A stretch of DNA of 64,000 bases from Aminipila luticellarii (GTDB lineage: Bacteria > Bacillota > Clostridia > Peptostreptococcales > Anaerovoracaceae): the NCBI RefSeq assembly GCF_004103735.1, contig NZ_CP035281.1:2356001-2420000 (forward strand). Direction: 5' to 3'. How positions within the stretch are numbered: position 1 is the stretch's first letter; each line of letters opens with the position of its first letter. Below the pieces are notes generated by a model. The model saw only the letters and a list, made by a program, of their open reading frames with translations. It searched no databases and was not told the origin of the DNA. Made by a program: the position numbers and the translations under genes. Shown piece by piece: positions 19,877 through 41,149 of the stretch.

Positions 19877-19895
19877 GATTTTTCTCCTTTCCATG

Positions 19896-21728: not shown

Positions 21729-22308
21729 CGAAAATCACCCACCTTTCTCCGTCATAATCCTCGTATTGTTCCGTTGTGACATTCTGCTCATAATAGACAC
21801 CCAGCAGGCGCTTGATGTCCGATTCACCCGCCTTGCGCACCGTGAAGCCCTGATCCTTAAGGCTCTTTTCGATGCGGGAGAGGTAGGGCTGAACATCGCG
21901 TTCCTTTTCATTTCTCAGCCGGATGATGATTAGAAATTCCCTTGCCGTTGCCATCTGCACCTGCATACGGTCAAGGGCGGTCTGATCCTGTGCCAGCAGT
22001 TTTCGGATGACAGGATTCTGCTCGGCATCCATTCTTGCTTTGAGATAACTCTTATTGTCCTCGAAGTTTTCCCGGCTGTTCAGGCACAGCATTTCAATTT
22101 CAGCAATGCCCTTGAGAACATTCATAAGAGCGTAGATTCTTGCCCCCACGCTGCTCTCAGACAAAACACTGATATTGGTCGGTTTAATCATAAAAAACAC
22201 CAGCTCACCGTGGGGCGTTACAAGGCTGTGGGCGGTGATGCCATCAATGCCCATGAGCTGGCGGGTGGAGGCTTTTTCTCTGGCCTCCTGTTTCTTTTTT
22301 CTGTTCAT
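21721..22308 (-). CDS. Conjugation protein between VirB3-like and VirB4, function unknown
   Basis: A 195-residue protein. Start at 22308 (second ATG) with GGAGG eight bases upstream; the nearer ATG is too close to the site. It has a basic front (RKKKQEAREK), a GIDGITAHSLVTPHGELVFF segment and a C-terminal QPYLSRIEKSLKDQGFTVRK. Proteins of this kind lie between PrgI and VirB4 in Tn1549-like elements, and the strands resemble the start of VirB4, so it may be a split VirB4 N-terminal module. No catalytic motif is visible. Confidence 0.75.
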   Translation of the reverse strand: MNRKKKQEAREKASTRQLMGIDGITAHSLVTPHGELVFFMIKPTNISVLSESSVGARIYALMNVLKGIAEIEMLCLNSRENFEDNKSYLKARMDAEQNPVIRKLLAQDQTALDRMQVQMATAREFLIIIRLRNEKERDVQPYLSRIEKSLKDQGFTVRKAGESDIKRLLGVYYEQNVTTEQYEDYDGERWVIFGE

Positions 22309-22310
22309 AT

Positions 22311-22568
22311 TCATCCCCTCCATTCGTAGGTCTGCTGCTTGCCAAAGAAGAAAGCGACGGCGTAGCGGATAAAGTCAAGGATGCTCACATCCTCGAAGCG
22401 GATGGATAAAAAGGCATAGACCGCCGTCAGAACAATGGGCGGCAGCCAGCCCAGCCGGGAGAGGGCAAAGACAGAAATCAGGCATTCGATGCCGATGATT
22501 CCGATGTCCCGCAGATCCCACAGCCACAGGGTCGCCTTTGATTTTAAGTTGTCGGGGTAGATGTACAT
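22311..22568 (-). CDS. PrgI/VirB3-like membrane protein
   Basis: An 85-residue inner-membrane protein with two hydrophobic segments (IGIIGIECLISVFALS and PPIVLTAVYAFLSI) and the short soluble ends expected for VirB3/PrgI. These proteins sit beside VirB4 and are needed for channel assembly. It overlaps the end of the methyltransferase gene by 25 bases and ends two bases before the next start. Confidence 0.8.
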   Translation of the reverse strand: MYIYPDNLKSKATLWLWDLRDIGIIGIECLISVFALSRLGWLPPIVLTAVYAFLSIRFEDVSILDFIRYAVAFFFGKQQTYEWRG

Positions 22569-24940
22569 CGGGGTGATCCCTCCTGTTCCTCATAGATTTT
22601 TCGTAAAAAATAAGCGATGCCTCGGAGGACAAAGTCCACGCAGGGTATCGCCACACTATTTCCAAGAGCTTTATACCGGGCGCTGTCAGATGCCCCCGGA
22701 ATTAGCGTCCAGCCATCGGGAAAACCTTGGAGCCGTTCACATTCCAGAGGGGTAAGCCTGCGGATGAGGTTGCGCCTTTCCACAATGCATTTGTTCTGAC
22801 TGACATACTGGCTGCCGATGCCTTTCTCATCTCCACGGCAAAGCGCGCCCACCACCTCTTGGTATGGCTCACACACTGCGTGCCGGTCGCTGGTTGTAAT
22901 GGTGTAGCTGATGTCCGGCTGACAGCCGAGGCCGTTGCCGCCGTTTTCCGGCTCCCGGTCGATGGTGTTTCCGGCAATGCAGATGGTTTCCTGCAAAATA
23001 GCAATGCCGCCTTGGTTCTTGCTGGGATCGGGGCTGGTTGTGTCAATGGTTCTGGCAACCTCCGTTTCCCGGCATCCCGAATGGGGATTTGCTGATTTCA
23101 TGCTGTTGGATTCCTTGGAATCCAGCGAAAAGGCAACGGCACTGCCCACCAGCGGAACATTATTGCCGCCTGTTCCCATCCGGGCGGACATGGTGGGCGC
23201 TACTGCATGGGGGCCGGTGTAGCGGCTGTCAATGCCGTGATTTTCAAATAATACCGGCTGATTATTGCCACTCATCCCGGCACTTGCCGTAATGGTCGGG
23301 CAGATGCCCTCGCCAATTTCAGCGCCGCCCTGCTGGGTCGCCATGACCAGCGGCTGATTGTTCCCGCCCTGCCCGAAGCCTGCGGATACTGTCTGCGACA
23401 CATCCACCGGTCCGGTAAAGCGGGAATCTTGTGCGTGGTTGTCAAACACCAGCGGCTGGTGTCCATGCTCCTGTGCGCGGAGGGTGCCGGTGATATCCTC
23501 GGTACAGTGCATCTGACTGCCGCCCTGATCGTTGAGGCACAGTACCGATGGGGCCGTGCCGGTTTTAATGGTGGGTGAGCACTCCGCCTGATAGCCGATT
23601 CCTCTCGCATCGGCGCTGGCATTTCCGCAGAAGCCCGCGGTAAGCACACAGGGATAGCCCTGTCCGGCCTGCCCACCGCCGCCGGTAATAGAGGTGTGTA
23701 CCTCCGGTGAGAGAAAGCAGTCGCCGTCACCCTTGCTGACAACGCCTGCCGCAAACAGAAGCCCTGCCGGGTTTCTTCCCCCGCCGCCGTCCGCACCGGC
23801 AAGAGTCGGCGCCACACCCTCCGGCGTGAACACACGGCTTTGCTGGGTATCCCAGCCGTTCAGACAGTTTGGCTGAGATACAAGGGGAGGATGCCCGCCC
23901 ATACCGGCGCGCAGCGTGGACGCCACATCCTCGGTGACATCCATCCGTTCGCCGCCCTGATCGTTTAAGCACAACAGCGGTTCTGCCACAAAGGTCTGCT
24001 GTTTCATCCCCGGCTGAGCCTGTACTGCCCCTGCAATATCGTGCAAATCCCGCACTTCATCACGTTGGTTGGCGGCGAAAGCAATGGGTATTCTTTCTTC
24101 TGTCTGAATATATCCGTGCCCACCGCCTTCACCACTATAGAGGGCGGGCCATGTTCCGGTTTCTTCAAAAATGCGGCGGCTCTGTACATCCCATGGGGTC
24201 AGGCAAGCCCCGCCTGTATCATCAGTGCGTCCCTGAGCTGGGGCGGCAGCTCCTTGCCGCGGGCCTCCGCTCTGCGCAATATCCCCAAACAGGCTGTCTT
24301 GCTTAAATAGTATTTCGGGTGCGGTCGTGCCTCCAAAATCTGCGACAAGGAAGATGCGACGGCGGCGCTGGGCGACTCCCCAGAATTGAGCGTCCATGAC
24401 TCTCCAAGCCAGGCTGAATTCATTTCCCAAAAGGACAGCCCCAGCAGATTCCCAGCGCCCGGACTCAGGTCGAGGCACATCACAGGCACTGTACTTAATG
24501 CGGACGATCTCCTCAATGACCGCCCGGAAGTCCTCCCCCTCTGCGGAGCTGAAGGCTCCGGGGACATTCTCCCAAACGAGGTATCGAGGTCGAACAAGGT
24601 GAGCTGGTACGTTTCGTTGCTCATCGGATTTTCTCATCTCCTTCGCAATGCGTGTCTGCTCCATAAACAGGCCGGAACGCTCACCCGCCAAGCCCCGGCG
24701 CTGGCCAGCGACCGATAAATCTTGACACGGGCTGCCGCCGCAAATGACGTCCACAGGCGGCAATTTCGCTCCGTCCAGCTTTGTAATATCCCCGACATGG
24801 AGCATTTCGGGGAATCGGATTTTCGTCACTTCAATGGGAAAGGCTTCGATTTCACTGGCCCATACGGGAGTGATACCGTTGCGGATAGCCGCCAATGGAA
24901 AACCTCCGATCCCATCGAAGAGGCTCCCCATCGTCATCAT
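22544..24940 (-). CDS. C5-cytosine DNA methyltransferase with large repeat insertion
   Basis: A 798-residue cytosine-5 methyltransferase. Conserved motifs are intact: SLFDGIGGFPLA (motif I), GGSPCQDLS with catalytic Cys72 (motif IV), WENVPGAF (motif VI), AQRRRRIFLVADF (motif VIII), and near the end LTPLECERLQGFPDGW and ALGNSVAIPCV (motifs IX-X). Between motif VIII and IX about 480 residues replace the usual target-recognition domain of 80-200. Roughly residues 285-700 are about ten irregular units of 30-45 residues with the theme TGP..V..T.SA..G.GGNN.PLV and twice CLNDQGG. It may protect the element from restriction. No restriction enzyme is adjacent. Confidence 0.92.
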   Translation of the reverse strand: MMTMGSLFDGIGGFPLAAIRNGITPVWASEIEAFPIEVTKIRFPEMLHVGDITKLDGAKLPPVDVICGGSPCQDLSVAGQRRGLAGERSGLFMEQTRIAKEMRKSDEQRNVPAHLVRPRYLVWENVPGAFSSAEGEDFRAVIEEIVRIKYSACDVPRPESGRWESAGAVLLGNEFSLAWRVMDAQFWGVAQRRRRIFLVADFGGTTAPEILFKQDSLFGDIAQSGGPRQGAAAPAQGRTDDTGGACLTPWDVQSRRIFEETGTWPALYSGEGGGHGYIQTEERIPIAFAANQRDEVRDLHDIAGAVQAQPGMKQQTFVAEPLLCLNDQGGERMDVTEDVASTLRAGMGGHPPLVSQPNCLNGWDTQQSRVFTPEGVAPTLAGADGGGGRNPAGLLFAAGVVSKGDGDCFLSPEVHTSITGGGGQAGQGYPCVLTAGFCGNASADARGIGYQAECSPTIKTGTAPSVLCLNDQGGSQMHCTEDITGTLRAQEHGHQPLVFDNHAQDSRFTGPVDVSQTVSAGFGQGGNNQPLVMATQQGGAEIGEGICPTITASAGMSGNNQPVLFENHGIDSRYTGPHAVAPTMSARMGTGGNNVPLVGSAVAFSLDSKESNSMKSANPHSGCRETEVARTIDTTSPDPSKNQGGIAILQETICIAGNTIDREPENGGNGLGCQPDISYTITTSDRHAVCEPYQEVVGALCRGDEKGIGSQYVSQNKCIVERRNLIRRLTPLECERLQGFPDGWTLIPGASDSARYKALGNSVAIPCVDFVLRGIAYFLRKIYEEQEGSPRCTSTPTT

Positions 24941-25323
24941 CAGGCCATCCTCATCGCCTGCTGGGGAGCTTCGGCCGGTTCGGTGCCTTTGGCTCTGCCG
25001 ATGGCAAAGCCGTTTTCCTGTTCCATCACCCGGCGAACCGGGATTCCGATTCTGACCGCTTCCTCGATTTCAAGGTGCATTCCATAGGAGATGCGGTCGC
25101 CGTAGCACCACAACTCGTCACAGCGGGGCAGCATGGCAAGTCCCATATCCAGACCCGCCTGACGCTCCTGCGGATTGGAATCATCAAGGAGCTGCGGATA
25201 TAACAGATGGGGCGCAAAAAAAGCGTGCCCCTCGTTCATCACATGGCGGCACGCTTTCCTGGCAAATGCGGTGTTCTGTTCGATGTCCCCGGCATAAGGG
25301 GACGCCACATAGATTAATTTCAT
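24940..25323 (-). CDS. DUF4406-family nucleoside deoxyribosyltransferase-like protein
   Basis: A 127-residue protein with the fold of nucleoside 2-deoxyribosyltransferases and related families (MKLIYVASPYAGDIEQNTAF, HAFFAPHLLYPQ, CDELWCYGDRISYGMHLEIE). The acidic residues at the last motif match the catalytic Glu region. The actual substrate is unknown; relatives on mobile elements may modify nucleotides. Its TGA overlaps the methyltransferase ATG. The tail ends QQAMRMA, one of the Met-X-Met tails. Confidence 0.8.
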   Translation of the reverse strand: MKLIYVASPYAGDIEQNTAFARKACRHVMNEGHAFFAPHLLYPQLLDDSNPQERQAGLDMGLAMLPRCDELWCYGDRISYGMHLEIEEAVRIGIPVRRVMEQENGFAIGRAKGTEPAEAPQQAMRMA

Positions 25324-25342
25324 AGGCTTTTCCTTTCTGTGC

Positions 25343-26248
25343 TTATTTCGGCGCTACCGCCTGTACGATGGTGCGGGTGGTGTTGACGGCAGCCTGTGCG
25401 GTATACACGGCGCTCATCACGTTGGCCTTTGTACTGGTATCCAGCCCGAAGGCTCCGGCAATTCGCGGTACTTCTCCTGCGGCCAGCATCAGACCAAGCC
25501 CCAGCAGAGCGTGGGTTCGCAGCACCATAAGCCCCGCCGCAAGGATGGTTGCCTGCAAAAATGTGGTGAGGCACAGACCGATGATCTGCTTGCACCACTG
25601 TGTAAAACCGTCGATGTAGCCGCGGGGAACGGAAAACATATACAGGCTGCCCACGGCAATCTGTATGAGCAGGATGCCGCCGCGCTTCAGGTTGGCAAAG
25701 AACACCTTAATGACCGCGTACCCCATCATGATGATCATAAAGAGCAGCAGGATGGGGCTTGTAATGACAGCCAGCCCTCCGAACACGCCGGAGCCCATGG
25801 CGCCAACCATATCCGGTGAGCTGCCAAGCTCGGAAATGATGTTCCCGGCAAGGTCGCCAAAGCTGGTTCCATAGCCGGTGATCCCCGCCGTGAGGCTGCT
25901 CTGGAGATTGACCGAGAGCTTGAACAGCTCCACCGGCACGATGGTAAAAAGGGACACCGCCATAAAGCCCTTAATGGCGTTTAAGGCGGTGTCCTTGATG
26001 CTGCCCCGGCCGTGCTGGTACTCGATGCCGGTTTCAAACGCCGACACCACCAGCCCGGTTCCATACAGCGCCCAAGCCAGATAGGAAAAAAACAGGACGA
26101 TGGACTGCACCCAGCTCATTTCGAACAGCTCCACGCCCATATTTCCCATCTGTGCAAAAAAATCGGCCAGAAAACCGACCACCTGTCCGTAGAGCCATTC
26201 GATGATCTGATCCATCACGGTTCCAAGGACAAAGTCCCATATGAACAT
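25343..26248 (-). CDS. virB6: VirB6/TrbL-like conjugation membrane protein
   Basis: A 301-residue polytopic membrane protein with about six hydrophobic segments (for example SIVLFFSYLAWALYGTGLV, PILLLFMIIMMGYAVI, LQATILAAGLMVLRTH). It has the features of TrbL/VirB6 channel proteins of Tn1549-type elements. In such elements it normally lies directly beside maff2. Here maff2 is 17.6 kb away, with the cassette array in between. Confidence 0.88.
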   Translation of the reverse strand: MFIWDFVLGTVMDQIIEWLYGQVVGFLADFFAQMGNMGVELFEMSWVQSIVLFFSYLAWALYGTGLVVSAFETGIEYQHGRGSIKDTALNAIKGFMAVSLFTIVPVELFKLSVNLQSSLTAGITGYGTSFGDLAGNIISELGSSPDMVGAMGSGVFGGLAVITSPILLLFMIIMMGYAVIKVFFANLKRGGILLIQIAVGSLYMFSVPRGYIDGFTQWCKQIIGLCLTTFLQATILAAGLMVLRTHALLGLGLMLAAGEVPRIAGAFGLDTSTKANVMSAVYTAQAAVNTTRTIVQAVAPK

Positions 26249-29130: not shown

Positions 29131-29190
29131 CTACATCCCCAAAATCGTCCAGAGTATCCTTGCAAAAGGATGGCGAACGGACTTTTTCAT
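29131..29190 (-). repeat. maff2-end attachment repeat R1
   Basis: Copy of the maff2 3' end plus arm. Read on the minus strand it encodes ARILWTILGM and stop, matching the WTILGM-stop of Maff2 at 43845. The arm reads SVRHPF upstream in the same frame, and this copy even has an ATG (MKKSVRHPF). Identical to R5 at 40355. Confidence 0.85.
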
Positions 29191-29227
29191 AGTATCTGTG
29201 TCCTTTCCATTGTTCATATTTGTTTAA

Positions 29228-29256
29228 TTGAAAGTTCCGCTTTACTATGGTAAACT
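29228..29256 (+). promoter_or_regulatory. Promoter of cassette 1 gene
   Basis: TTGAAA and TAAACT separated by 17 bases. The same arrangement occurs at 40452-40480 and, with related sequence, at 41150-41178 in the last cassette, so these cassettes share a leader of about 170 bases. Confidence 0.55.
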
Positions 29257-29365
29257 CACTTTATATATCTGCCGTGTAAAACTTTTGTGAAACGGTAGCA
29301 TGGGAAATTAACGCTCGGTGAGCAAGTTTTATATAATTTATATAATGTGTGAGGTGGTGCAATAA

Positions 29366-29713
29366 ATGTTTAATGAAATTTGTATCTATGAGGCAAAGAT
29401 TGAAAAGCAAGAGGAAATTGAGCAACTTATGAAAGAGGTTGCCGCCTTTTATATGGAGCAGGATGGTGTTATTGAAGTTAGATATATCAAACGCACCCAC
29501 CGCCAAACAGATTTTAATGCCGTTAAAGAAGGGGCATTGCCTGTTCGCCTCACACGCAATGTAGGCAAAGTCACTTATGTTTTACATTGGACTGTTAGAG
29601 ATGAAGAAACTCACGCAAGGGTGTCAAAGTTAGGGTTAGAGCATTTTTACAAGCGATGGAACAGATGCTTAACCACTATGCCAAAAATTATTTTGGGTGA
29701 AAACATTGTGTAA
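29366..29713 (+). CDS. Antibiotic-biosynthesis-monooxygenase-like small protein (copy 1)
   Basis: A 115-residue protein that looks like a dimeric alpha/beta-barrel (ABM-type) member: FNEICIYEAKIEKQEEIEQL, MKEVAAFYMEQDGVIEVRYI, VTYVLHWTVRDEETHARVSK. No catalytic residue can be named, because this family binds varied ligands. It has its own promoter and a strong terminator. The protein at 40590-40937 is identical over its full length. Confidence 0.7.
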   Translation: MFNEICIYEAKIEKQEEIEQLMKEVAAFYMEQDGVIEVRYIKRTHRQTDFNAVKEGALPVRLTRNVGKVTYVLHWTVRDEETHARVSKLGLEHFYKRWNRCLTTMPKIILGENIV

Positions 29714-29783
29714 GGGTATGAGCACACCCTCTGTTAGTAGTTTAACTTCACCTACACAATAAAATCTGACTTATCACGAATTT

Positions 29784-29815
29784 GAGCCGTTGCATCTTAC
29801 TTGACGCAACGGCTC
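29784..29815 (+). terminator. Cassette 1 terminator (copy 1)
   Basis: GAGCCGTTGC and GCAACGGCTC stem followed by a short T-rich run, nine bases before repeat R2. Close relatives lie before R5 and R6. Confidence 0.85.
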
Positions 29816-29824
29816 TTGCTTTGT

Positions 29825-29888
29825 CTACATGCCAAGAATAGTCCAGAGTATCCTTGCATTAGGTCGGTGAACGGATTTTAATTTTCAT
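29825..29888 (-). repeat. maff2-end attachment repeat R2
   Basis: Core encodes WTILGM-stop on the minus strand with codons TGG ACT ATT CTT GGC ATG TAG. The arm in frame is KLKSVHRPNARIL. It marks the left end of the arsenic cassette. Confidence 0.85.
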
Positions 29889-29908
29889 AAACAGCGCTTC
29901 CTTTCATA

Positions 29909-29975: not shown

Positions 29976-30290
29976 TTGGAGCTTACTCCGGAGAAGAACG
30001 CTAATGTATTTAAGGCATTTTGCGATGAAAAGCGGCTTGCCATTTTGGAACTGCTGCGCAGCGGTGAAAAATGCGCCTGCGTGCTCATTGATCAAATGGA
30101 AATCGGTCAGTCCTCCTTGTCCTATCACATGAAGATTTTATGTGAATCGGGTATTGTCGAAAGCAGACAGGAAGGCAAATGGACACATTATAAAATCAGT
30201 GAACAGGGCAGCCACGAGGCCATGCTCCTGTTAAAAGCAATTACCACCCCCAATGCAACCGCTGAAGATACTCGTTGTTGCAATCAATAA
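29976..30290 (+). CDS. arsR: ArsR-family arsenic-responsive repressor
   Basis: A 104-residue winged-helix repressor starting with TTG (ELTPEKNANVFKAFCDEKRL). The GEKCACVLIDQM segment carries the paired cysteines of the alpha-3 As(III) site, and GQSSLSYHMKILCESGIVE is the recognition helix. The end has a further CC pair. It heads the arsenic cassette and should repress its own promoter and, through the second operator, the following genes. Confidence 0.92.
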   Translation: MELTPEKNANVFKAFCDEKRLAILELLRSGEKCACVLIDQMEIGQSSLSYHMKILCESGIVESRQEGKWTHYKISEQGSHEAMLLLKAITTPNATAEDTRCCNQ

Positions 30291-30327
30291 CGGCCATCTG
30301 ATGGAAGATGGCTTTTATTCGGCACAA

Positions 30328-30349
30328 CATATCAAGTTTTTTTGATATG
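30328..30349 (+). promoter_or_regulatory. Second ArsR operator, between arsR and the permease
   Basis: CATATCAA, six bases, TTGATATG forms a near-perfect palindrome matching the operator before arsR. It lies in the 93-base gap before the permease gene. Confidence 0.8.
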
Positions 30350-30383
30350 ACTATTGAATTTAAGAAAGAGAGGCGCTTACCCT

Positions 30384-31397
30384 ATGGAGATCCTTCAAAA
30401 TACGTGGCTGTTCTTTCAAGACCAAGTGCTTGGAATGAAATGGCTCAACGCCCTAATCGGTAATCTGCTCTCGTTGTTCGGTCTTGATGTAACAGGACGA
30501 ATTGGTGGCAGCGTTCAATTCTTTATCTATGATGTACTAAAAATCACCGTACTGCTCTGCGTGCTGATTTTCATCATCTCGTACATTCAAAGCTACTTCC
30601 CGCCGGAACGAAGCAAGAAAATTATGAGCCGCTTTCACGGCGTGTGGGCAAATATCATGGCAGCACTGCTTGGCACGGTAACGCCTTTTTGCTCTTGCTC
30701 CTCCATACCTCTGTTCATTGGATTTACCAGTGCCGGACTGCCCCTTGGCGTGACTTTTTCCTTTCTGATTTCCTCACCCATGGTAGACCTCGGGTCGCTC
30801 GTTCTGCTCATGAGCATCTTTGGCACAAAGGTCGCTATCGTCTATGTCGTTGTGGGCCTGGTTATCGCGGTCGTTGGCGGTACGCTGATTGAAAAACTTC
30901 ACATGGAAAACTATGTGGAAGAATTCATTCGCTCGGCAAGCGGCGTAGATTTTGAATCGCCTGACTTAACCCGCAAAGAGCGTGTCATTTACGCCAAGGA
31001 TCAGGTGGTGTCAACCTTCAAAAAAGTTCTGCCGTACATTCTGGTTGGCGTGGGCATCGGAGCTATCATCCACAACTGGATTCCTGAAAGCTGGATTGAG
31101 ATGGTGCTTGGCAGCAATAATCCTTTTGGGGTAGTGCTGGCAACTCTGCTTGGCGTTCCCATGTACGCTGACATTTTCGGCACGATTCCGGTGGCCGAAG
31201 CGCTGCTCTACAAAGGCGCGCAGCTTGGTACGGTTCTCTCCTTTATGATGGCAGTCACAACGCTTTCCCTGCCCTCCATCATCATGCTGCGCAAGGCGGT
31301 AAAGCCGAAGCTGTTGGGCACATTTATTGCCATCTGCACCATCGGCATTATCATTGTTGGCTATCTGTTTAATATTTTCCAGTATCTACTGGTTTAA
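30384..31397 (+). CDS. arsP: ArsP/COG0701-type permease
   Basis: A 337-residue membrane permease with eight or so helices and the family motif TPFCSCSSIPLFIGF, the cysteine-rich helix used for metalloid contact. ArsP proteins export trivalent organoarsenicals; close relatives of the SO_0444 type handle other metals. The first ATG with GAGAGG upstream is used. The second half repeats the fold (VLPYILVGVGIGAIIHNW, GVPMYADIFGTIP). Position after arsR and before a DUF2703 protein supports an arsenic role. Confidence 0.85.
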   Translation: MEILQNTWLFFQDQVLGMKWLNALIGNLLSLFGLDVTGRIGGSVQFFIYDVLKITVLLCVLIFIISYIQSYFPPERSKKIMSRFHGVWANIMAALLGTVTPFCSCSSIPLFIGFTSAGLPLGVTFSFLISSPMVDLGSLVLLMSIFGTKVAIVYVVVGLVIAVVGGTLIEKLHMENYVEEFIRSASGVDFESPDLTRKERVIYAKDQVVSTFKKVLPYILVGVGIGAIIHNWIPESWIEMVLGSNNPFGVVLATLLGVPMYADIFGTIPVAEALLYKGAQLGTVLSFMMAVTTLSLPSIIMLRKAVKPKLLGTFIAICTIGIIIVGYLFNIFQYLLV

Positions 31398-31412
31398 TGG
31401 GAGGGAAAGAGA

Positions 31413-32186
31413 ATGGCTAAAAACTGGTATCCAGTCATCGATTATCTTGCTTGCACTGAATGCGGAACCTGCGTGGATTTTTGCTCCCACAGTGTTTATA
31501 ACAAAGCAAAAGCCCCGTCCCCTGTGGTGATGCAACCCGGAAACTGCATTGACCGTTGCCACGGCTGCGGCAACAAGTGTCCGGCAGGCGCCATCTCCTA
31601 TGTAGGCGACGATACTGGCTGGACACCGCCAAACGGCGAATGCAGTGCAAAAAAAAGCGTAGATTGCTGCCGCGGCGGGGCTTGTGAGGAGGATTCCTCC
31701 AAGGCTGTGCTTGTGGAATATCTCTATCTTGATCTCAATACCTGTGACCGCTGTATCGGCGCCGATGCGGTACTGGAAGAAGTTTTGGGCAGTATCGCGC
31801 CCGCTCTGGAGGCTGCCGGATATACCATGCGGCTTCAAAAGGTACAGATCGCCACAAAAGAACTGGCGGAGCACTACCGATTCCTTGCGTCGCCCACCAT
31901 TCGTGTAAATGGGCAGGATATCTGCGGACCTGTTGCGGAAAACACCTGCGGCTGCTGTGGTGAAATCAGCGGAACCGATGTGACCTGTCGTACCTTTGCA
32001 TACAAAGGTCAAGCCTATGAAGTACCGCCCAAAGCCATGCTGGCCGAAGGAATTCTAAGAGCTGTGCTCGGCATGGTGCAGCCCGTTTGTGACTGCGGCG
32101 AGTATTCACTTCCAGAAAATCTCAAAAACTTCTTTGAGGGAAAAGCTGTGAAGACCGGTTGCTGCCCTGAAGGTACTTGCGGATGA
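31413..32186 (+). CDS. Ferredoxin / DUF2703 fusion protein
   Basis: A 257-residue protein joining a [4Fe-4S] ferredoxin-like domain (CTECGTCVDFC, CIDRCHGCGNKCP) to a DUF2703 domain (about residues 95-200; YLDLNTCDRCIGAD, SPTIRVNGQDICG). It ends with a Cys-rich segment CCPEGTCG. DUF2703 proteins are regular members of arsenic operons in anaerobes and probably bind or reduce arsenic compounds. The fusion suggests electron delivery to the DUF2703 site. Confidence 0.85.
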   Translation: MAKNWYPVIDYLACTECGTCVDFCSHSVYNKAKAPSPVVMQPGNCIDRCHGCGNKCPAGAISYVGDDTGWTPPNGECSAKKSVDCCRGGACEEDSSKAVLVEYLYLDLNTCDRCIGADAVLEEVLGSIAPALEAAGYTMRLQKVQIATKELAEHYRFLASPTIRVNGQDICGPVAENTCGCCGEISGTDVTCRTFAYKGQAYEVPPKAMLAEGILRAVLGMVQPVCDCGEYSLPENLKNFFEGKAVKTGCCPEGTCG

Positions 32187-32197
32187 GTAAACAAAGG

Positions 32198-32488
32198 ATA
32201 TAAAAACAGTTATTCCACTTTTGATTTTCGCCGTCATTGCCGAGATTGACCTTTACGGTTTTGGGTATCCTTGCGGCCACGGCGGGCAGCCTTGTATGGA
32301 GTGTTTTGCTACTGCTGCTCTATTTCATTGGGCACGGCATTCTCGCCGTGATTGCGGAGCCTTCCATGGGCTTTGCCCAAAAGCTCTCCCAAAGCGAGAA
32401 GTATGGAAAAGCCAGCGCTATTTTGAAAATCGTCATGGGCGCGGTGATCCTGCTCATCGGTTTCTATTTGTTATATTCAGGTTTCTAA
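32198..32488 (+). pseudogene. CcdA-like membrane protein with internal deletion
   Basis: About 14 codons of a CcdA/DsbD-type start (KTVIPLLIFAVIA) are followed at once by the C-terminal 80 residues of the same family (LTFTVLGILAATAGSLVW, then FIGHGILAVIAEPSMGFAQK, ending GFYLLYSGF), in a different frame. The usual protein has about 230 residues and six helices, so some 130 residues are lost. The initiation codon reads ATA where ATG is expected. A free ORF at 32237-32488 covers the tail and is probably not a working gene. The intact family passes electrons to thioredoxin-like partners such as the next gene. Confidence 0.7.
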
Positions 32489-32513
32489 TCATGAATTTAA
32501 GGAGGTTTTTATT

Positions 32514-32957
32514 ATGGCATTGTTTGGTTTTGGTAAAAAGAAAAATGCAGAGGAAGAATTGGTGCAGTGTGGTTGCGGGGAAATGTGCAAGCCCTCCGAA
32601 ATTGCCGCAAAGAAAGCTGACGAAGAAGCAAAAGCAAAAAACTCCGGTTGCTGCTGTGGCGGTGACTGCAATACAGAAACGATTGCGGAAGCCGAAAAAG
32701 CAAAAGTGAGCGGTTCATCCGTCAAGGTGCTTGGCTCGGGCTGTGCAAAGTGCAATCAACTGGAAGCGGCTACCTTGGAAGCGCTCAAAGAGCTTGGCAT
32801 GGATGCCACCATTGACCATGTGACAGACTTTACACAGATCGCTGCTTACGGTGTGATGACAACTCCTGCATTGGTTGTGGACGGCAAGGTCGTTTCCTTT
32901 GGAAAGGTTTTAAAAAAGGACGAGGTCGTTAAAATCCTGCAAAAAGTACGGGGGTAA
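32514..32957 (+). CDS. Thioredoxin-like small redox protein with Cys-rich N terminus
   Basis: A 147-residue protein. Residues about 68-147 are a thioredoxin fold of the TM0996/MTH895 type with the active site GSGCAKCNQLE and a cis-Pro TTPALVVDG. The first 60 residues are unusual: charged with CGCGEMC and GCCCGGDC clusters, which could bind metal or metalloid. Its place between the broken CcdA-like gene and ACR3 suggests an arsenic-linked reductase. Confidence 0.85.
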   Translation: MALFGFGKKKNAEEELVQCGCGEMCKPSEIAAKKADEEAKAKNSGCCCGGDCNTETIAEAEKAKVSGSSVKVLGSGCAKCNQLEAATLEALKELGMDATIDHVTDFTQIAAYGVMTTPALVVDGKVVSFGKVLKKDEVVKILQKVRG

Positions 32958-32961
32958 ATTT

Positions 32962-34008
32962 ATGGCAAAGGAAAAATCACAAAGCATTGGCTTCTTTCAA
33001 AAATACCTGACCGTGTGGGTTGCTCTCTGTATGACGGCAGGTGTTTTAATTGGTAAACTTTTACCTGCCGTTCCTGCATTTTTAGGCCGTTTTGAGTATG
33101 CCAGAGTTTCTATTCCGGTCGCCATCCTCATTTGGGTGATGATTTATCCCATGATGATGAAGGTGAATTTCCAGAGCGTCAAAAATGTGGGGAAAAACCC
33201 AAAGGGGTTATTCGTCACATGGGTGACAAACTGGCTCATCAAGCCGTTCACCATGTACGGTATCGCCGCGCTATTTTTCTATGTGGTTTTTAAGGGCTTG
33301 ATTGCCCCTGACCTCGCCAAGGAGTATCTGGCGGGTGCAGTACTCTTGGGTGCGGCACCCTGCACAGCGATGGTGTTCGTCTGGAGCACGCTCACCAAAG
33401 GAAACCCTGCCTACACCGTAGTACAGGTAGCAACCAACGATTTGATTATTCTGGTTGCCTTTGTGCCGATTGTGAAATTCCTACTGGGCGTTTCCAACGT
33501 GTCCGTGCCATGGGACACGCTGATTTTATCGGTCATTTTATTTGTAGTCATTCCGCTTGCGGGCGGTATTCTGACCCGTGTGCTGGTGACAAATCGCAAG
33601 GGCACAGAGTATTTTGAAAACACCTTTGTCCATAAATTTGATAATGCCACCAGCATTGGTCTGCTGCTCACTTTGGTATTGCTGTTTTCCTTCCAAGGTG
33701 ATGTGATTTTGAATAATCCGCTGCACATTCTACTCATTGCTGTGCCGCTTGTTTTGCAAACTTTCCTTATTTTCTTCATCGCTTATTTTGCTTGCAAATG
33801 GCTGAAGCTGCCCCATGATATTGCCGCCCCTGCGGGGATGATTGGCGCGTCCAACTTCTTTGAACTGTCGGTCGCTGTGGCGATTGCATTGTTTGGTACT
33901 ACTTCACCGGCGGCTCTTGCCACCGTAGTTGGCGTGCTGACCGAGGTGCCGGTGATGCTGTTGCTTGTAAAAATCGCCAACAAAACGAAAGGATGGTTTC
34001 CAGTATGA
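32962..34008 (+). CDS. acr3: ACR3-type arsenite efflux permease
   Basis: A 348-residue ten-helix arsenite exporter of the ACR3 family (FLGRFEYARVSIPVAILIWV, PMMMKVNFQSVKNVGKNPK, GAAPCTAMVFVWS with the key Cys in helix 4, EVPVMLLLVKIANKT). It exports As(OH)3 using the proton gradient. Its stop overlaps the arsC start (ATGA). Confidence 0.95.
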   Translation: MAKEKSQSIGFFQKYLTVWVALCMTAGVLIGKLLPAVPAFLGRFEYARVSIPVAILIWVMIYPMMMKVNFQSVKNVGKNPKGLFVTWVTNWLIKPFTMYGIAALFFYVVFKGLIAPDLAKEYLAGAVLLGAAPCTAMVFVWSTLTKGNPAYTVVQVATNDLIILVAFVPIVKFLLGVSNVSVPWDTLILSVILFVVIPLAGGILTRVLVTNRKGTEYFENTFVHKFDNATSIGLLLTLVLLFSFQGDVILNNPLHILLIAVPLVLQTFLIFFIAYFACKWLKLPHDIAAPAGMIGASNFFELSVAVAIALFGTTSPAALATVVGVLTEVPVMLLLVKIANKTKGWFPV

Positions 34009-34412
34009 GCAAACCTAAAGTAGCATTTATCTGCGTACACAACTCCTGCCGCAGCCAAATTGCCGAAGCACTGGGCAAGTACCTTGCGTCTGATGTCTTT
34101 GAAAGCTATTCTGCCGGAACGGAAGTAAAGCCGCAAATCAATCAGGATGCTGTGCGGCTGATGAAGCAGATTTATGGCATCGACATGGAGCGAACTCAGC
34201 GCAGTAAGCTGCTGGAGGAGATTCCCCCAGTGGATATCGTGGTGACCATGGGCTGCAATGTGCAGTGTCCTTTTTTGCCCTGTATGCACAGGGAGGATTG
34301 GGGGTTAGATGACCCAACCGGCAAAAGCGATGTGGACTTTGAACGTACTATAAAAGCAATCCGCTCTAAAATTGAGAATTTGAGAGAGCGAATCGCTGAC
34401 AACAAACTATAA
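34005..34412 (+). CDS. arsC: Arsenate reductase, LMW-phosphatase type
   Basis: A 135-residue ArsC with the CX5R P-loop ICVHNSCRSQIAEA, further cysteines in TMGCNVQCPFLPCM and the DWGLDDPTGKSD segment that holds the general acid Asp. It reduces arsenate to arsenite for export by the preceding ACR3. Start at 34005 (ATGA overlap); an earlier in-frame ATG at 33993 is less likely. Confidence 0.93.
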   Translation: MSKPKVAFICVHNSCRSQIAEALGKYLASDVFESYSAGTEVKPQINQDAVRLMKQIYGIDMERTQRSKLLEEIPPVDIVVTMGCNVQCPFLPCMHREDWGLDDPTGKSDVDFERTIKAIRSKIENLRERIADNKL

Positions 34413-35050: not shown

Positions 35051-35099
35051 TCTATAGGGCGTATTGCTCCCTCCGAATTTGTAAATGCGAGGAGATAAA

Positions 35100-35975
35100 A
35101 TGTCTGACAAGTTTGGAAGAAATGATCTCTGCTGGTGTGGCAGCGGTCGAAAATATAAGAAATGTCATGGCCCTATTGATGAGCAAATTGAAATCTACCG
35201 CTTAAAGGGATATGAAGTGCCTTATCGAAAATTGCTTAAAACAAAACAACAGATTGAAGGTATTCGGGAAAGCAGCAAACGAAACATCGCTTTACTGGAT
35301 TTCATTGCAAATTATGCGGTTGATGGAATCACCACGGAAGAGCTTGACCGGCTTATCTTCGAAAAAACCAAGGAACTGGGAGGCGTTCCAGCAACACTCA
35401 ATTTTGACGGATACCCTAAGAGCGTGTGTATCTCAATTAATGATGTTGTATGTCATGGTATCCCCTCTGATCGTATATTCCTGCGAAACGGCGATATTGT
35501 AAATATTGATGTGTCTACAATTTATAACGGATTTTTTTCAGATTCTTCACGCATGTTTTGCATTGGTGCTGTTTCCGCTGAGAAACAAAAACTGGTTGAT
35601 GTTGCGAAAGAGTGTGTGGAGCTGGGCATTGAACAGGTAAAACCGTGGGGATTTCTTGGTGATGTTGGGCAAGCTGTTCAAGACCATGCAAGGGAAAATG
35701 GATATTCTGTCGTTCGAGAAATCGGAGGCCACGGTATTGGTCTACAATTTCATGAAGATCCTTGGGTCGGTTATGTGACAAAGCAAGGAACAGGAATGCT
35801 CTTAGTCCCAGGACTTGTTTTTACTGTAGAGCCTATGATAAATATGGGAAAATCCAATATAGTAACAGATAAATGCGATAATTGGACTATTCGCACTGCT
35901 GATGGGAAGCCTTCTGCGCAATGGGAAAAACAGGTGTTAGTAACCGAAACTGGTTATGAGGTGTTGGCATATTAA
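35100..35975 (+). CDS. map: Type I methionine aminopeptidase with SEC-C zinc motif
   Basis: A 291-residue peptidase that removes the initiator Met. Residues 6-24 are a SEC-C zinc motif (GRNDLCWCGSGRKYKKCHG). The catalytic part has VVCHGIPSD, the ligand pair in NIDVSTIYNGFFSDSSRMF, GGHGIGLQFHEDP, FTVEPMINMG and WEKQVLVTE, so all five metal ligands are present. As an accessory copy on mobile DNA it may give tolerance to an aminopeptidase inhibitor; that is inference. Confidence 0.92.
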   Translation: MSDKFGRNDLCWCGSGRKYKKCHGPIDEQIEIYRLKGYEVPYRKLLKTKQQIEGIRESSKRNIALLDFIANYAVDGITTEELDRLIFEKTKELGGVPATLNFDGYPKSVCISINDVVCHGIPSDRIFLRNGDIVNIDVSTIYNGFFSDSSRMFCIGAVSAEKQKLVDVAKECVELGIEQVKPWGFLGDVGQAVQDHARENGYSVVREIGGHGIGLQFHEDPWVGYVTKQGTGMLLVPGLVFTVEPMINMGKSNIVTDKCDNWTIRTADGKPSAQWEKQVLVTETGYEVLAY

Positions 35976-36073: not shown

Positions 36074-36137
36074 CTACATGCCAAGAATAGTCCAGACAAT
36101 CCTTGCATAAAGACGGTGAACGGATTTTTGTTTTCAT
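36074..36137 (-). repeat. maff2-end attachment repeat R4
   Basis: Core identical to R2 and R6 (codons TGG ACT ATT CTT GGC ATG TAG). In frame the arm reads KQKSVHRLYARIV. Left end of the ATPase cassette. Confidence 0.85.
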
Positions 36138-36248
36138 TTTAATTCTCCTTACATCTTCTATAATATTCTGGTTGACAATGATTGCAATCCTGCATATAAT
36201 ATATAGAATCTCTTTGCACTGCATTACATTCAGCATGAATGCGAGATC

Positions 36249-36361
36249 AACAGTACAAACTGAGCAGGCGATGAACCTTTTTGTAAAGGTCATGGGGCCG
36301 GGCCGCCCAATGAGCGGCAACAGATTGCAATTTGAGCACATCTGTGGGACAGTAGTATGTT
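36249..36361 (+). promoter_or_regulatory. NiCo (cobalt/nickel) riboswitch aptamer
   Basis: The four-way-junction signatures of the czcD/NiCo riboswitch are present in order: ACTGAGCAGGCGATGA, GGTCATGGGGCCGGGC, GCGGCAACAGAT, CACATCTGTGGGACAGT. The outer stem pairs AACAGTACAAACTG with CAGTAGTATGTT. A following hairpin (TGTTCCAT / ATGGAACA, 36359-36397) shares bases with the closing stem and may be the expression switch. It lies 107 bases before the P-type ATPase, which it should control in response to Co or Ni. Confidence 0.88.
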
Positions 36362-36467
36362 CCATAGGTGTGCTATTTTTTATACCCTGATGGAACACAT
36401 GACCCCGAAATGGAGTGCCATAGAGCTATCAAACGACTGCCGAAAGGCTAAAACGGAGGTAACTTTT

Positions 36468-39005
36468 ATGACAGACAAAAAGCAAAACATGGCTGGCTTA
36501 ACCGCCACCGAAGCAAAACGATTGCAGGAGCAATATGGTAAGAATGAATTGACCGCACGGAAAAAAGAAAGCTTTTTCAAAAAAATCCTGCATATTATCT
36601 GCGAACCAATGTTCTTACTGCTCATTGTTGCTGCGACCATTTATTTTATTCTGGGAGAATCCAGGGATGGTGCGATTATGCTCATTTTTGTGGTGGGCAT
36701 CATTAGCATTGATGTAATTCAAGAATGGAAAACCGATAAAGCCCTAAATGCCCTGAAAGATTTATCTGCCCCGCATGTCACTGTTATTCGTGATGGCAAG
36801 GAGCAGACCATTGCAAGTGCTGACCTTGTGCCCAGCGACTTAATGATGATTTATGAGGGGGTTAAAATCCCGGCAGACGGCATTATAATAAAATGTAACG
36901 ACCTGTGTGTCGATGAATCTTCGTTGACCGGCGAAGCGGAAGGTGTGTGGAAAATCAACACTGAGAGTGCAGATTCAACAAGCGACTATTGGCGGCGTGA
37001 TTATTGTTATGCTGGCACGCTGGTTACACAGGGCACAGCAACGGTACTGGTAGATAAAATTGGTGGCAGCACCGAATATGGAAAAATCGGTGCTAATGTT
37101 GCATCTGCACCAGAGGAACCCACACCCCTACAAAAGCAAACCGGAAGTCTTGTTAAACTATGCGCAGGAATTGCTGCAGTCTTGTTTGCCCTTGTAGGAA
37201 TATTCACATGGCTAAATATTCCTGACCACAGCTTTGGCGACAGGCTGATTGAAAGCATTTTGTCGGGCATCACCCTTGCCATGGCAATGATTCCAGAAGA
37301 GTTTCCTGTCATCCTCACGGTATTTTTATCAATGGGAGCTTGGCGACTTGCCAAAAAGCAGTCACTGGTGCGCAAGTTGCCTTCAGTGGAAACGCTTGGC
37401 GCCGTATCTGTGCTATGCGTAGATAAAACAGGTACCATCACGATGAATCAGATGACCGTGCAGGATACGTGGGCTACTGATGGCAACACCATAGCACTTT
37501 GTGAAGTAATGGGTATGGGCTGCGAGACCGATGCCTATGACCCAATGGAAAAGGCAATGCTCAAGCATTGCGAAACCCTTGGAATTTTAAAGGAAGATCT
37601 TTTTGCTGGAGAACTAATCAGCGAATATGCCTTTACAAATGAGTTGAAGATGATGGGGCATATTTGGCGCAGAGATGACGGAATTACCGTTGCCGCAAAA
37701 GGGTCCCCTGAGCGTATCTTAACTATTTGTAAGCTTACAGATTTAGAAAAACAAACAGCAGAACAGAAGATCACCGAAATGTCCAAACAAGGTTTGCGTG
37801 TAATTGCAGTTGCCACTGCAAAGCTACAAAGTGAAGCAGAAATTCCTGCACAGATCACAGACTGCCATTTAACGCTTTGCGGACTGATCGGGCTTGCCGA
37901 CCCACCCCGTGAAGGTGTAAAAGCAGACATCGCCGTTTGCAATAAAGCGGGTATTCGTGTTGTTATGATTACAGGTGATAATGGCATCACCGCCGCGTCT
38001 ATCGCAAAGAAAATCGGTATGCAAAACAGCGACCATATCATTACAGGCGATATGCTAAGCGAAATGACCGATGAAGAACTGCGTGAAAAAGTGAAGGATG
38101 TCAGCATTTTTTCTCGTGTCATTCCTGAACATAAAATGCGTATTGTAAAAGCATTCAAAGATAACGGTGAAATTGTCGCGATGACCGGTGATGGCGTGAA
38201 TGATGCACCCGCTCTCAAATATGCCGATATTGGCATTGCAATGGGTAAACGCGGCAGTGAAGTTTCCCGTGAAGCAGCAGATCTCATTCTAATGGACGAC
38301 AATTTTACTACTATTGTAGAAACGGTAAAAGACGGTCGCCGTATTTATGATAACATTCGCAAGGCTGTGGGCTATGTGTTCACCATTCATATTCCCATTG
38401 CCTTTGCCTCCTTACTTGCACCAATCCTTGGCATTGCCCCCTCAGCACTGCTTTTACTTCCTCTCCACGTTGTTCTGCTCGAGCTACTCATTGACCCTAC
38501 CTGCTCGATTGTACTAGAGCGTCAGCCTGCCGAAGCAGACATTATGGAGCGAAGCCCTCGAGATCCAAAGGAAAAACTGTTGACCGCAAAAACTCTAGCC
38601 AAAAGCATTTTGCAGGGACTTATCATTTTTGCGGCCTCCTTTGGAACGTATTACGTAATCCTCGATGGAAATGTTGATAATGCACCAGTTGCCCGGGCAA
38701 TGGGGCTTGCAATTATCATGCTATCCAACTTGTTTCTTGTACAGGTCAATAGTTCTGATCACGATTTTACCTTTCAATCGGTAAAGCGCCTTGTGAAAGA
38801 CAAAGTGATGTGGGCAGTTAACCTTGGTACACTGGCTATGCTTGGCATTATTTTGTATTCGCCACTCAATGGCTTATTAAAGTTGGCACCACTTTCTGCT
38901 TCTCTGTTATTAAAGGCTGTTATTATTGCATTTATCGCAGTGTTTTGGTTTGAGTTAGTGAAACTGGTAAAACGACAAAAACTGAAAAATGGTTCAATGC
39001 AATAA
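36468..39005 (+). CDS. Cation-transporting P-type ATPase (PEEFP type), likely Co/Ni export
   Basis: An 845-residue P-type ATPase of P2-like layout: TGEAEG actuator loop, AMIPEEFPVILT in helix 4, CVDKTGTITMNQ phosphorylation site, GDGVNDAPALKYADIGIAMG, and six C-terminal helices. PEEFP replaces the PEGLP of calcium pumps, defining a bacterial subgroup whose ion is not clear from sequence. The NiCo riboswitch directly upstream argues for cobalt or nickel. Start after GGAGG at 36468. Confidence 0.9.
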   Translation: MTDKKQNMAGLTATEAKRLQEQYGKNELTARKKESFFKKILHIICEPMFLLLIVAATIYFILGESRDGAIMLIFVVGIISIDVIQEWKTDKALNALKDLSAPHVTVIRDGKEQTIASADLVPSDLMMIYEGVKIPADGIIIKCNDLCVDESSLTGEAEGVWKINTESADSTSDYWRRDYCYAGTLVTQGTATVLVDKIGGSTEYGKIGANVASAPEEPTPLQKQTGSLVKLCAGIAAVLFALVGIFTWLNIPDHSFGDRLIESILSGITLAMAMIPEEFPVILTVFLSMGAWRLAKKQSLVRKLPSVETLGAVSVLCVDKTGTITMNQMTVQDTWATDGNTIALCEVMGMGCETDAYDPMEKAMLKHCETLGILKEDLFAGELISEYAFTNELKMMGHIWRRDDGITVAAKGSPERILTICKLTDLEKQTAEQKITEMSKQGLRVIAVATAKLQSEAEIPAQITDCHLTLCGLIGLADPPREGVKADIAVCNKAGIRVVMITGDNGITAASIAKKIGMQNSDHIITGDMLSEMTDEELREKVKDVSIFSRVIPEHKMRIVKAFKDNGEIVAMTGDGVNDAPALKYADIGIAMGKRGSEVSREAADLILMDDNFTTIVETVKDGRRIYDNIRKAVGYVFTIHIPIAFASLLAPILGIAPSALLLLPLHVVLLELLIDPTCSIVLERQPAEADIMERSPRDPKEKLLTAKTLAKSILQGLIIFAASFGTYYVILDGNVDNAPVARAMGLAIIMLSNLFLVQVNSSDHDFTFQSVKRLVKDKVMWAVNLGTLAMLGIILYSPLNGLLKLAPLSASLLLKAVIIAFIAVFWFELVKLVKRQKLKNGSMQ

Positions 39006-39063
39006 AAATAAGAGCTGCGTGAATTCTCACGTGGCTCTTACTTTTTTTACATGTATTGTGGTT

Positions 39064-40354: not shown

Positions 40355-40414
40355 CTACATCCCCAAAATCGTCCAGAGTATCCTTGCAAAAGGATGGCGA
40401 ACGGACTTTTTCAT
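40355..40414 (-). repeat. maff2-end attachment repeat R5
   Basis: Identical over 60 bases to R1 at 29131 (core and arm). Core encodes WTILGM-stop with TGG ACG ATT TTG GGG ATG TAG. Confidence 0.88.
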
Positions 40415-40451
40415 AGTATCTGTGTCCTTTCCATTGTTCATATTTGTTTAA

Positions 40452-40480
40452 TTGAAAGTTCCGCTTTACTATGGTAAACT
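40452..40480 (+). promoter_or_regulatory. Promoter of second cassette-1 copy
   Basis: TTGAAA-17 bases-TAAACT, identical to 29228-29256. Confidence 0.55.
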
Positions 40481-40589
40481 CACTTTATATATCTGCCGTG
40501 TAAAACTTTTGTGAAACGGTAGCATGGGAAATTAACGCTCGGTGAGCAAGTTTTATATAATTTATATAATGTGTGAGGTGGTGCAATAA

Positions 40590-40937
40590 ATGTTTAATGA
40601 AATTTGTATCTATGAGGCAAAGATTGAAAAGCAAGAGGAAATTGAGCAACTTATGAAAGAGGTTGCCGCCTTTTATATGGAGCAGGATGGTGTTATTGAA
40701 GTTAGATATATCAAACGCACCCACCGCCAAACAGATTTTAATGCCGTTAAAGAAGGGGCATTGCCTGTTCGCCTCACACGCAATGTAGGCAAAGTCACTT
40801 ATGTTTTACATTGGACTGTTAGAGATGAAGAAACTCACGCAAGGGTGTCAAAGTTAGGGTTAGAGCATTTTTACAAGCGATGGAACAGATGCTTAACCAC
40901 TATGCCAAAAATTATTTTGGGTGAAAACATTGTGTAA
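40590..40937 (+). CDS. Antibiotic-biosynthesis-monooxygenase-like small protein (copy 2)
   Basis: Protein identical to that at 29366-29713 (115 residues). See that entry for the fold. The perfect coding identity points to a recent copying event rather than an old duplication. Confidence 0.7.
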   Translation: MFNEICIYEAKIEKQEEIEQLMKEVAAFYMEQDGVIEVRYIKRTHRQTDFNAVKEGALPVRLTRNVGKVTYVLHWTVRDEETHARVSKLGLEHFYKRWNRCLTTMPKIILGENIV

Positions 40938-41007
40938 GGGTATGAGCACACCCTCTGTTAGTGGTTTAACTTCACCTACACAATAAAATCTGACTTATCA
41001 CGAATTT

Positions 41008-41039
41008 GAGCCGTTGCATCTTACTTGACGCAACGGCTC
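41008..41039 (+). terminator. Cassette 1 terminator (copy 2)
   Basis: GAGCCGTTGC / GCAACGGCTC, identical to 29784-29815, followed by repeat R6. Confidence 0.85.
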
Positions 41040-41048
41040 TTGCTTTGT

Positions 41049-41112
41049 CTACATGCCAAGAATAGTCCAGTCAATGCTTGCATATAGACGGTGAACGGAT
41101 TTTAATTTTCAT
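41049..41112 (-). repeat. maff2-end attachment repeat R6
   Basis: Core identical to R2 and R4. The in-frame arm is KLKSVHRLYASID. Left end of the AraC/VOC/DUF5131 cassette; the following 130 bases resemble the leader of cassette 1. Confidence 0.85.
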
Positions 41113-41149
41113 AGCACCGAACCCCTCCCTGTTGTCTATATTTAATTAA

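Follow-up and report, generated by a model that had tools for sequence, protein, structure and literature searches.

A NiCo riboswitch aptamer is recurrently paired with a family of P2-type cation ATPases that carries a changed predicted ion site

Results

We analyzed a window of 64,000 nucleotides (nt) from Aminipila luticellarii (contig NZ_CP035281.1, positions 2,356,001 to 2,420,000 of the forward strand; coordinates below are those of the window), in which a NiCo riboswitch aptamer lies ahead of a gene for an 845-amino-acid (aa) P2-type cation ATPase with the motif PEEFP. A survey of related genomes indicated that the pairing of NiCo RNAs with this ATPase family is a recurrent rule, not a single case. 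Judged from sequence, the unit is likely a one-gene metal-detoxification switch joined to a P2-type exporter of the switch's own metal, with Fe(II) as the most likely physiological one. Surveyed genomes and loci are referred to by G and L numbers, respectively.

To characterize the leader, all of Rfam was run against the whole window with cmscan, which returned three RNAs: the NiCo aptamer, a c-di-GMP-I riboswitch, and a pemK RNA. The NiCo match (RF02683; 36250-36354, + strand) is full length, spanning model positions 1-96 of 96, and scored 82.2 bits, where the gathering score is 37; its E value, computed over the 64-kb window, is 1.2e-17. The aptamer that an earlier note on this DNA had placed ahead of the ATPase is thus real, its covariance score lying far above the family threshold, and the span claimed there (36249-39005) agrees with the coordinates found here to 1 nt. 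The aptamer is the sole NiCo match in the 2.75-Mb, one-contig genome, and the same search found none in 14 control genomes. Its core guanines are common to 37 other NiCo RNAs (alignment A3), and in this alignment of 38, compared by column rather than per numbered guanine, it retains the invariant and near-invariant columns. Conserved NiCo guanines are described as binding the metal (PMC7689651; this and the other papers cited are represented here by excerpts).

The aptamer is preceded by a promoter with 12 of 12 consensus matches (TTGACA, 17-nt spacer, TATAAT; 36172-36200, +) and runs into an intrinsic terminator (36335-36374, +) composed of a 17-bp stem followed by ATTTTTT. The terminator stem overlaps the final 20 nt of the aptamer, and its 5' arm includes the 3' strand of P4, GGGAC, and the 3' strand of P1. 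Folding of the naked leader favors the terminator hairpin (-54.8 kcal/mol, z -4.0). The same layout was clear by inspection in 36 of 40 NiCo-ATPase leaders, at least two of the 40 being duplicates. Because the terminator reuses the 3' strand of the aptamer, the window leader is expected to act on the ATPase gene as a metal-ON switch of transcription. A ribosome-binding site read from the sequence (GGAGG; 36455-36459, +) stands 8 nt before the ATG at 36468, and a second terminator (39009-39040, +; 14 bp, then CTTTTTTT) closes the gene; therefore, the unit is probably monocistronic.

The ATPase gene is intact (36468-39005, +, the stop codon ending at 39005); a longer open reading frame (ORF) from 36357 begins inside the leader. 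Pfam, NCBIfam, and the predicted fold support the assignment of its product as a P2-type cation ATPase: it has the Cation_ATPase_N, E1-E2_ATPase, Hydrolase (HAD), and Cation_ATPase_C domains, the signatures DKTGT and TGDGVNDAP, and PEEFP at residues 276-280. The predicted model (mean pLDDT 82.6, pTM 0.72) matches the fold of LMCA1 and SPCA1, which are also the closest solved relatives, at ~30% identity. Among NCBIfam models, the PMR1-type model scored best, with 505 bits, below its cut-off of 798, and the SERCA-type model reached 404 bits against 703. We rejected membership in the PMR1- or SERCA-type Ca2+ ATPases, since these equivalog cut-offs were missed and ion-site residues differ. The Mg-ATPase model gave 331 bits. 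The heavy-metal P1B model TIGR01525 stayed under its cut-off (241 versus 346 bits), and a P1B identity of the PfeT or ZntA kind was likewise set aside.

Next to this protein, the order and phylum of the host were surveyed. The order sample comprised 297 genomes with NiCo matches at 33 places in 32 of them, and 30 of the 33 loci were read. Listed ATPase matches at E up to 1e-100 numbered 150 in the order (the total is higher) and fell into five proteins at 56-100% identity and 145 at ≤40%, separated by a score gap of 989 versus 482 bits. NiCo lies just upstream on the same strand in all five subfamily loci; by coordinates, none of the 145 generic P2 ATPases among the matches listed is near a NiCo RNA, and where both share a contig (two genomes of the order) they are >400 kb apart. 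The phylum sample held 398 genomes, with 111 NiCo places in 99 of them. Its ATPase subfamily, defined by ≥40% identity and E up to 1e-140, counted 24 loci, two of which (G545 and G569) are cut by contig ends. NiCo was found directly upstream on the same strand, at 61-192 nt, in 20 of the 22 assessable loci; in G350, the 5' end of an aptamer and the 3' arm of a terminator flank a run of N. Thus, surveying riboswitches upstream of PEEFP ATPases, a check named in the earlier note, returned the pairing at nearly every assessable subfamily locus of the phylum. At least 20 of the 111 NiCo places of the phylum precede this ATPase, one of them (G457) with a score under the Rfam cut-off. As a negative control, 27 generic P2 loci were searched with R1, a model trained on 38 of the phylum's NiCo RNAs, and gave no match.

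NiCo RNAs also precede other genes, mainly those of CDF exporters. In the order, the downstream gene is the ATPase at 5 of the 30 loci read and encodes a protein related by BLAST to the CDF of L002 at 22; the other three all score under the Rfam cut-off, L024 and L029 having something else downstream and L030 lying at a contig end. Besides the window's own, 29 NiCo loci of the phylum were fetched: 12 precede the ATPase, 14 a CDF-like protein (by BLAST), L089 a related ATPase cut by a contig end, and L080 and L081 neither. Pfam Cation_efflux was confirmed for the order loci L002, L007, L011, and L026 and also for L088. In G254, a CDF gene directly follows the ATPase gene. At L080 and L081, a short ORF separates the NiCo RNA from a kinase-like ORF farther downstream, which Pfam assigned to Pkinase in the case checked, L080.

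Beyond the phylum, we scanned the upstream regions of the best 80 of at least 588 relatives in named genomes, chosen by similarity with alignment A2 and hence not at random; L118 and L119 of this set are identical to G589 and G175. At the Rfam gathering score, all 15 loci of L116-L130 (58-81% identity) as well as L140 have NiCo directly upstream, and L134 has it farther upstream of the ATPase. With R1, matches at E up to 0.0035 were obtained in 23 of the 80 loci, all upstream on the ATPase strand, which added Synergistes (L133), Elusimicrobia (L188), Spirochaetes (L142 and L138), Dehalococcoidia (L151), and Omnitrophota (L195); two further R1 matches at E ~0.5 are located elsewhere and are noise-like. 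Twenty of the 23 are direct; an 80-aa ORF would fit between RNA and ATPase gene in L138, and longer genes intervene in L134 and L195. The alignments retain most of the core (CAG, CGGG, GCAG, and GGAC), most weakly in L195, with several departures from consensus. Crisp terminators on the 3' strand were seen in L151 and L188; the layout was not clear on inspection in L138, L140, L142, and L195. In two Spirochaetota NiCo-like RNAs (L138, 462-809; L224, 1501-1990), the P1 3' strand CUUCC lies near a GGAG ahead of a short ORF, an arrangement that might represent a translational platform. When 30 of these genomes were scanned in full, the sole matches reported for Synergistes, Cloacimonetes, and Elusimicrobia equaled the ATPase-upstream ones in score and length. 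Furthermore, Clostridium tagluense and a member of the Lentisphaeria each encode one more protein of the family (73% and 52% identical over the part read), its gene directly preceded by a NiCo RNA. At gathering score, none of the 80 loci has another Rfam metal riboswitch immediately ahead of the ATPase gene, molybdenum and fluoride riboswitches at L121 being >1 kb away; control of the PEEFP family by Mn, Mg, or other known riboswitches was accordingly rejected.

To delineate the predicted ion site, 105 PEEFP proteins were aligned with 27 generic P2 ATPases, for which calcium-pump function is not itself established here. Position 641 is His in 105/105 PEEFP proteins and Asn in 27/27 generic ones, position 672 is Glu (101/105) against Asn (27/27), position 679 is Cys (103/105) against Pro (27/27), and position 644 is Ile (105/105) against Glu (24/27). 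Two positions are common to both groups: Glu277 (102/105 and 27/27) and Asp676 (102/105 and 27/27). The window ATPase thus shares Glu277 and Asp676 with generic P2 ATPases, and at its predicted site His641, Glu672, and Cys679 replace Asn, Asn, and Pro. We take the SERCA names of these positions to be N768, N796, D800, E309, and E771, presumably with a calcium-site role. In an HMMER alignment, residues 641 and 672 fall on the Asn residues of transmembrane helices 5 and 6 (TM5 and TM6) of LMCA1; the pair of Asn residues in TM5 and TM6 that marks a calcium site is therefore absent. Having His and one more carboxylate, perhaps also Cys, such a site would seem to suit a transition metal better than Ca2+. 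The changed site is also present in PEEFP members without NiCo.

A FastTree phylogeny was computed from the 105 PEEFP proteins and 5 outgroup ATPases, leaving out L125, L104, L179, and L112 (too short) and L031 (a copy of the query). L134, L195, L138, the gapped L090, and weak matches were labeled as NiCo, L109 as none, and L111 was unscored. The tree has two main clades, one of 40 rows, 36 with NiCo, and one of 65 rows, over which 10 NiCo-bearing rows are scattered at several positions; the NiCo-less rows of the former are three Clostridiaceae and an Enterococcus plasmid copy. The NiCo label changes 10 times on the tree, at least 8 of these changes being forced by starred branches, with gain and loss indistinguishable. 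The window pump groups with L116, L117, and L090, the last (G350) from the same phylum and another family, and the other same-family member found (G175) is placed elsewhere.

The unit lies in an 11.2-kb segment between two direct repeats of 759 bp (29131-29889 and 40355-41113, both +; 98.8% identical), which holds the switch and its ATPase gene, arsenic resistance (ars) genes, and genes for a methionine aminopeptidase (MetAP), an AraC-type regulator, a cupin, and a ferredoxin. The arsenic genes (29976-34412, +) encode ArsR, an ArsP-like permease, a ferredoxin/DUF2703 protein, a thioredoxin-fold protein, ACR3, and an ArsC-like protein of the LMWPc family. A 64-bp partial repeat copy (36074-36137, +; 89-92% identical) sits just upstream of the promoter, shorter pieces of the repeat also occur elsewhere, and a 101-bp probe from it hit five places in the genome, all inside the window. 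By eye, an imperfectly palindromic motif of 44 nt has six intergenic copies (29132, 29826, 34457, 36075, 40356, and 41050). The MetAP gene directly upstream of the switch (35085-35975) carries a SEC-C motif and has a counterpart elsewhere in the congener G266, 84% identical.

G266 has one full copy of the repeat (95% identical), partial ones, and related ars genes in another arrangement, with no NiCo RNA and no matching pump at the corresponding places. Neither G266 nor the congener G214 has a NiCo match genome-wide, and among the matches listed at E up to 1e-100 their ATPases are only ~33% identical; the fourth genome of the genus, G693, was covered by DNA search only. On these sequence comparisons, horizontal gain of the switch-pump unit is likely. 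The earlier note had described a riboswitch traveling inside a cassette, which is supported in part: the 759-bp repeats bound the segment, G266 has one full repeat copy and other content, and the segment is a candidate mobile cassette whose transfer would be conjectural. In a Clostridia metagenome-assembled genome (L117), genes for ArsR (52%), ACR3 (70%), and a DUF2703-like protein (25%) stand just before its own NiCo-ATPase. Linkage to ars genes as a general rule was rejected, as among 165 loci only L117 (strong) and L139 (ACR3 alone, 33%) have it, and in 17 wider regions an ars-type gene, ArsC-like, occurs in L200 only.

Other neighbors of the ATPase were diverse. Clustering of neighbors in the 80 loci and 17 wider regions gave, by eye, no iron-uptake or iron-storage cluster among the clusters listed, and an iron-gene neighborhood as a clue to the metal was dropped. 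DedA/VTT-like genes flank the ATPase in 4 of the 80 loci (Pfam checked for one). At L195 (2327-2977), the NiCo RNA is followed by a DedA/VTT gene and then the ATPase; at L134 (2401-2919), a B12-binding radical SAM gene and DUF2062 come between them. Behind the NiCo-controlled ATPases of L205 (493-1609, -) and L210 (11885-13028, +), genes for double-zinc-ribbon and protein-kinase-domain proteins follow on the same strand.

Elsewhere in the window, the left end carries the pemK RNA (2543-2640, -), the c-di-GMP-I riboswitch (3803-3891, -), and a serine recombinase gene (100-1680). A P1B-type ATPase with a CPC motif (4259-6163, -), which passes the thresholds set for the heavy-metal and cadmium-family models, lies near conjugation genes. 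The latter (8382-26248, -) include those for a TraG/TraD coupling protein, a MobL relaxase-Sel1 fusion, TrbL_5, a DNA methylase, an amidoligase, and an M23/NlpC peptidase.

Discussion

Our results suggest a simple mechanism. The strong constitutive promoter would transcribe the NiCo aptamer, and without metal the aptamer 3' strand (P4, GGGAC, and P1 strands) would form the 17-bp terminator, ending transcription. When a divalent transition metal is abundant, it would bind the conserved guanines and hold the 3' strand in the aptamer, allowing read-through as expected for the class, and the P2-type ATPase would then pump the same metal out of the cytosol. The host is probably anaerobic, judging from its relatives, and Fe(II) would be the most likely metal, Co(II) and Ni(II) being transported alongside it or in its place. 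Judged by their names, the named genomes in which NiCo occurs belong largely to anaerobic lineages. Because the same pairing recurs across distant bacteria, PEEFP pumps, which are usually annotated as calcium or generic cation pumps, are probably exporters of a transition metal, for instance iron, cobalt, or nickel.

The identity of the metal is a separate question. Assuming export, we favor Fe(II) as the main substrate by a modest measure over even, give Co(II)/Ni(II) as main substrates roughly one chance in three, and regard another metal as improbable. The earlier note had assigned a probable Co/Ni role to the pump; the recurrence of the pairing points to the substrate class, and the assignment to Co/Ni as such is not supported, the NiCo class having been re-argued as an Fe(II) sensor. 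In buffered assays, the affinities were 61 nM for Ni, 93 nM for Zn, 120 nM for Co, and 400 nM for Fe(II), the riboswitch reacts to several metals in Escherichia coli, and the cognate metal of the class is called still unclear (PMC7689651); in another excerpt the class is entered as an Fe2+ riboswitch (PMC11477304).

The rival that fares best is a narrower version of this proposal, with which its probability overlaps, namely that the unit senses and exports Co(II)/Ni(II) in particular. Description of the class as Ni/Co-responsive (as cited in PMC7266159 and PMC7689651) and the tightest binding of Ni, Zn, and Co in the buffered assays (PMC7689651) speak for it; however, given the metal levels estimated to be available in cells, Fe(II) and Mn(II) are argued to be the only ones that would fill the aptamer, and a Listeria NiCo-linked P1B ATPase guarded Bacillus subtilis from Fe(II) and not from Co(II) (PMC7689651). 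Taken together, we consider this specific version unlikely, though the most serious alternative.

An ordinary P2A pump for Ca2+ or Mn2+, newly placed under a transition-metal switch, would fit the best solved relatives, namely LMCA1, a Ca2+ pump, and SPCA1, for which both Ca2+ and Mn2+ structures exist, as well as the PMR1-type model, albeit scoring below its cut-off, and a P-type ATPase of Clostridioides difficile under an Mn riboswitch provides a precedent (PMC11477304). Nonetheless, the ion-site positions differ consistently between PEEFP and generic P2 proteins, the pairing with NiCo recurs in separate parts of the tree, and the 80 loci have no other Rfam metal riboswitch directly upstream at gathering score, all of which make this pump improbable.

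Some P-type ATPases import Mg2+, and transport direction cannot be read from sequence; the ATPase might thus bring in a protective ion such as Mg2+ as toxic metals rise. Against this stand the lower score of the Mg-ATPase model (331 versus 505 bits) and the other NiCo targets, mainly CDF-family proteins, and we hold such import to be very improbable. Finally, that switch and pump are chance neighbors, functionally unlinked, in a mobile segment bounded by direct repeats and holding unrelated ars genes is contradicted by the survey, in which the same arrangement, with a terminator between, recurs at 20/22 phylum and 5/5 order loci, and can be dismissed.

Several observations weigh against the proposed metal-export switch or its generality. 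The metal identity is drawn from literature about other NiCo RNAs, and the ion-site substitutions were placed by sequence alignment alone. NiCo was not found in the 234 nt available upstream of the G407 ATPase of the phylum. An Enterococcus gilvus plasmid encodes an ATPase 62% identical to the window pump, and no NiCo was found there either. No NiCo match was obtained in 57 of the 80 named PEEFP loci (4 of which have <450 nt of upstream DNA); therefore, most of that sample is regulated otherwise. Most non-Bacillota matches are under the Rfam threshold, and L142, L138, L151, and L195 were unrecovered at genome scale, where part of the candidates was scored. Moreover, a blind R1 scan of 149 Spirochaetota genomes gave three matches and missed L142 in its own genome; the one convincing match precedes a short ORF and a CDF gene (Pfam Cation_efflux), and the other two lie inside unrelated ORFs. 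Owing to this outcome, the 20-bit matches of L138 and L195 are tentative, and NiCo in Spirochaetota is not exclusive to the ATPase.

The unit resembles known systems in part. With the NiCo (czcD) class that precedes CDF exporters (RF02683), it shares the aptamer sequence, the conserved guanines, and the terminator-based ON-switch layout, but its controlled gene encodes a P2-type ATPase, not a CDF; read-through upon metal binding is described for such riboswitches (PMC7689651). On a Listeria plasmid, a NiCo RNA stands before a P-type ATPase (PMC6985202), and we take this system to be the same as LMO3448, a PfeT-like P1B ATPase (PMC7689651). Like the window unit, it has a NiCo aptamer ahead of a P-type ATPase, on mobile DNA there and on a candidate mobile segment here, whereas its ATPase is called P1B and ours is P2-type. 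In C. difficile (CD2503) and Lactococcus lactis (YaoB), a metal riboswitch drives a cation-translocating P-type ATPase thought to export the metal sensed (PMC11477304); the riboswitch is of another class, Mn, and the ATPases are likened by description only. The calcium pumps LMCA1 (lmo0841) and SPCA1/PMR1 have the same P2 fold at about 30% identity; however, PEEFP of the window pump is PEAL in LMCA1 and mostly PEGL in generic P2 relatives, and LMCA1, like those relatives, has Asn, Asn, and Pro at the positions of His, Glu, and Cys.

P2 ATPases are commonly regarded as pumps for Ca2+, Na+/K+, and similar ions. An excerpt of a 2023 review terms P2A ATPases Ca2+ pumps (PMC10654040). As far as the literature searched shows, the systematic tie of NiCo RNAs to a P2 ATPase family whose predicted ion site is altered is new; NiCo control of a P2 ATPase was not described in that literature, and the founding NiCo papers, which lay outside the search, may list some. 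Because members without NiCo share the ion site, we extend the substrate class hypothetically to the whole PEEFP family of many bacterial phyla and archaea: its members may form an unrecognized class of P2-type exporters of transition metals, chiefly Fe(II), with a His-Glu-Asp-Cys site, and NiCo would have joined the family repeatedly during evolution, a generalization that we offer tentatively and rate just short of an even chance. Several plasmid genes of this kind are labeled cation-translocating P-type ATPase. If these P2 pumps do expel Fe(II), Co(II), or Ni(II), many genes so labeled would gain a testable substrate. Since the switch and its own pump lend themselves to being tested together, the finding also bears on whether NiCo RNAs sense Fe(II) in anaerobes.

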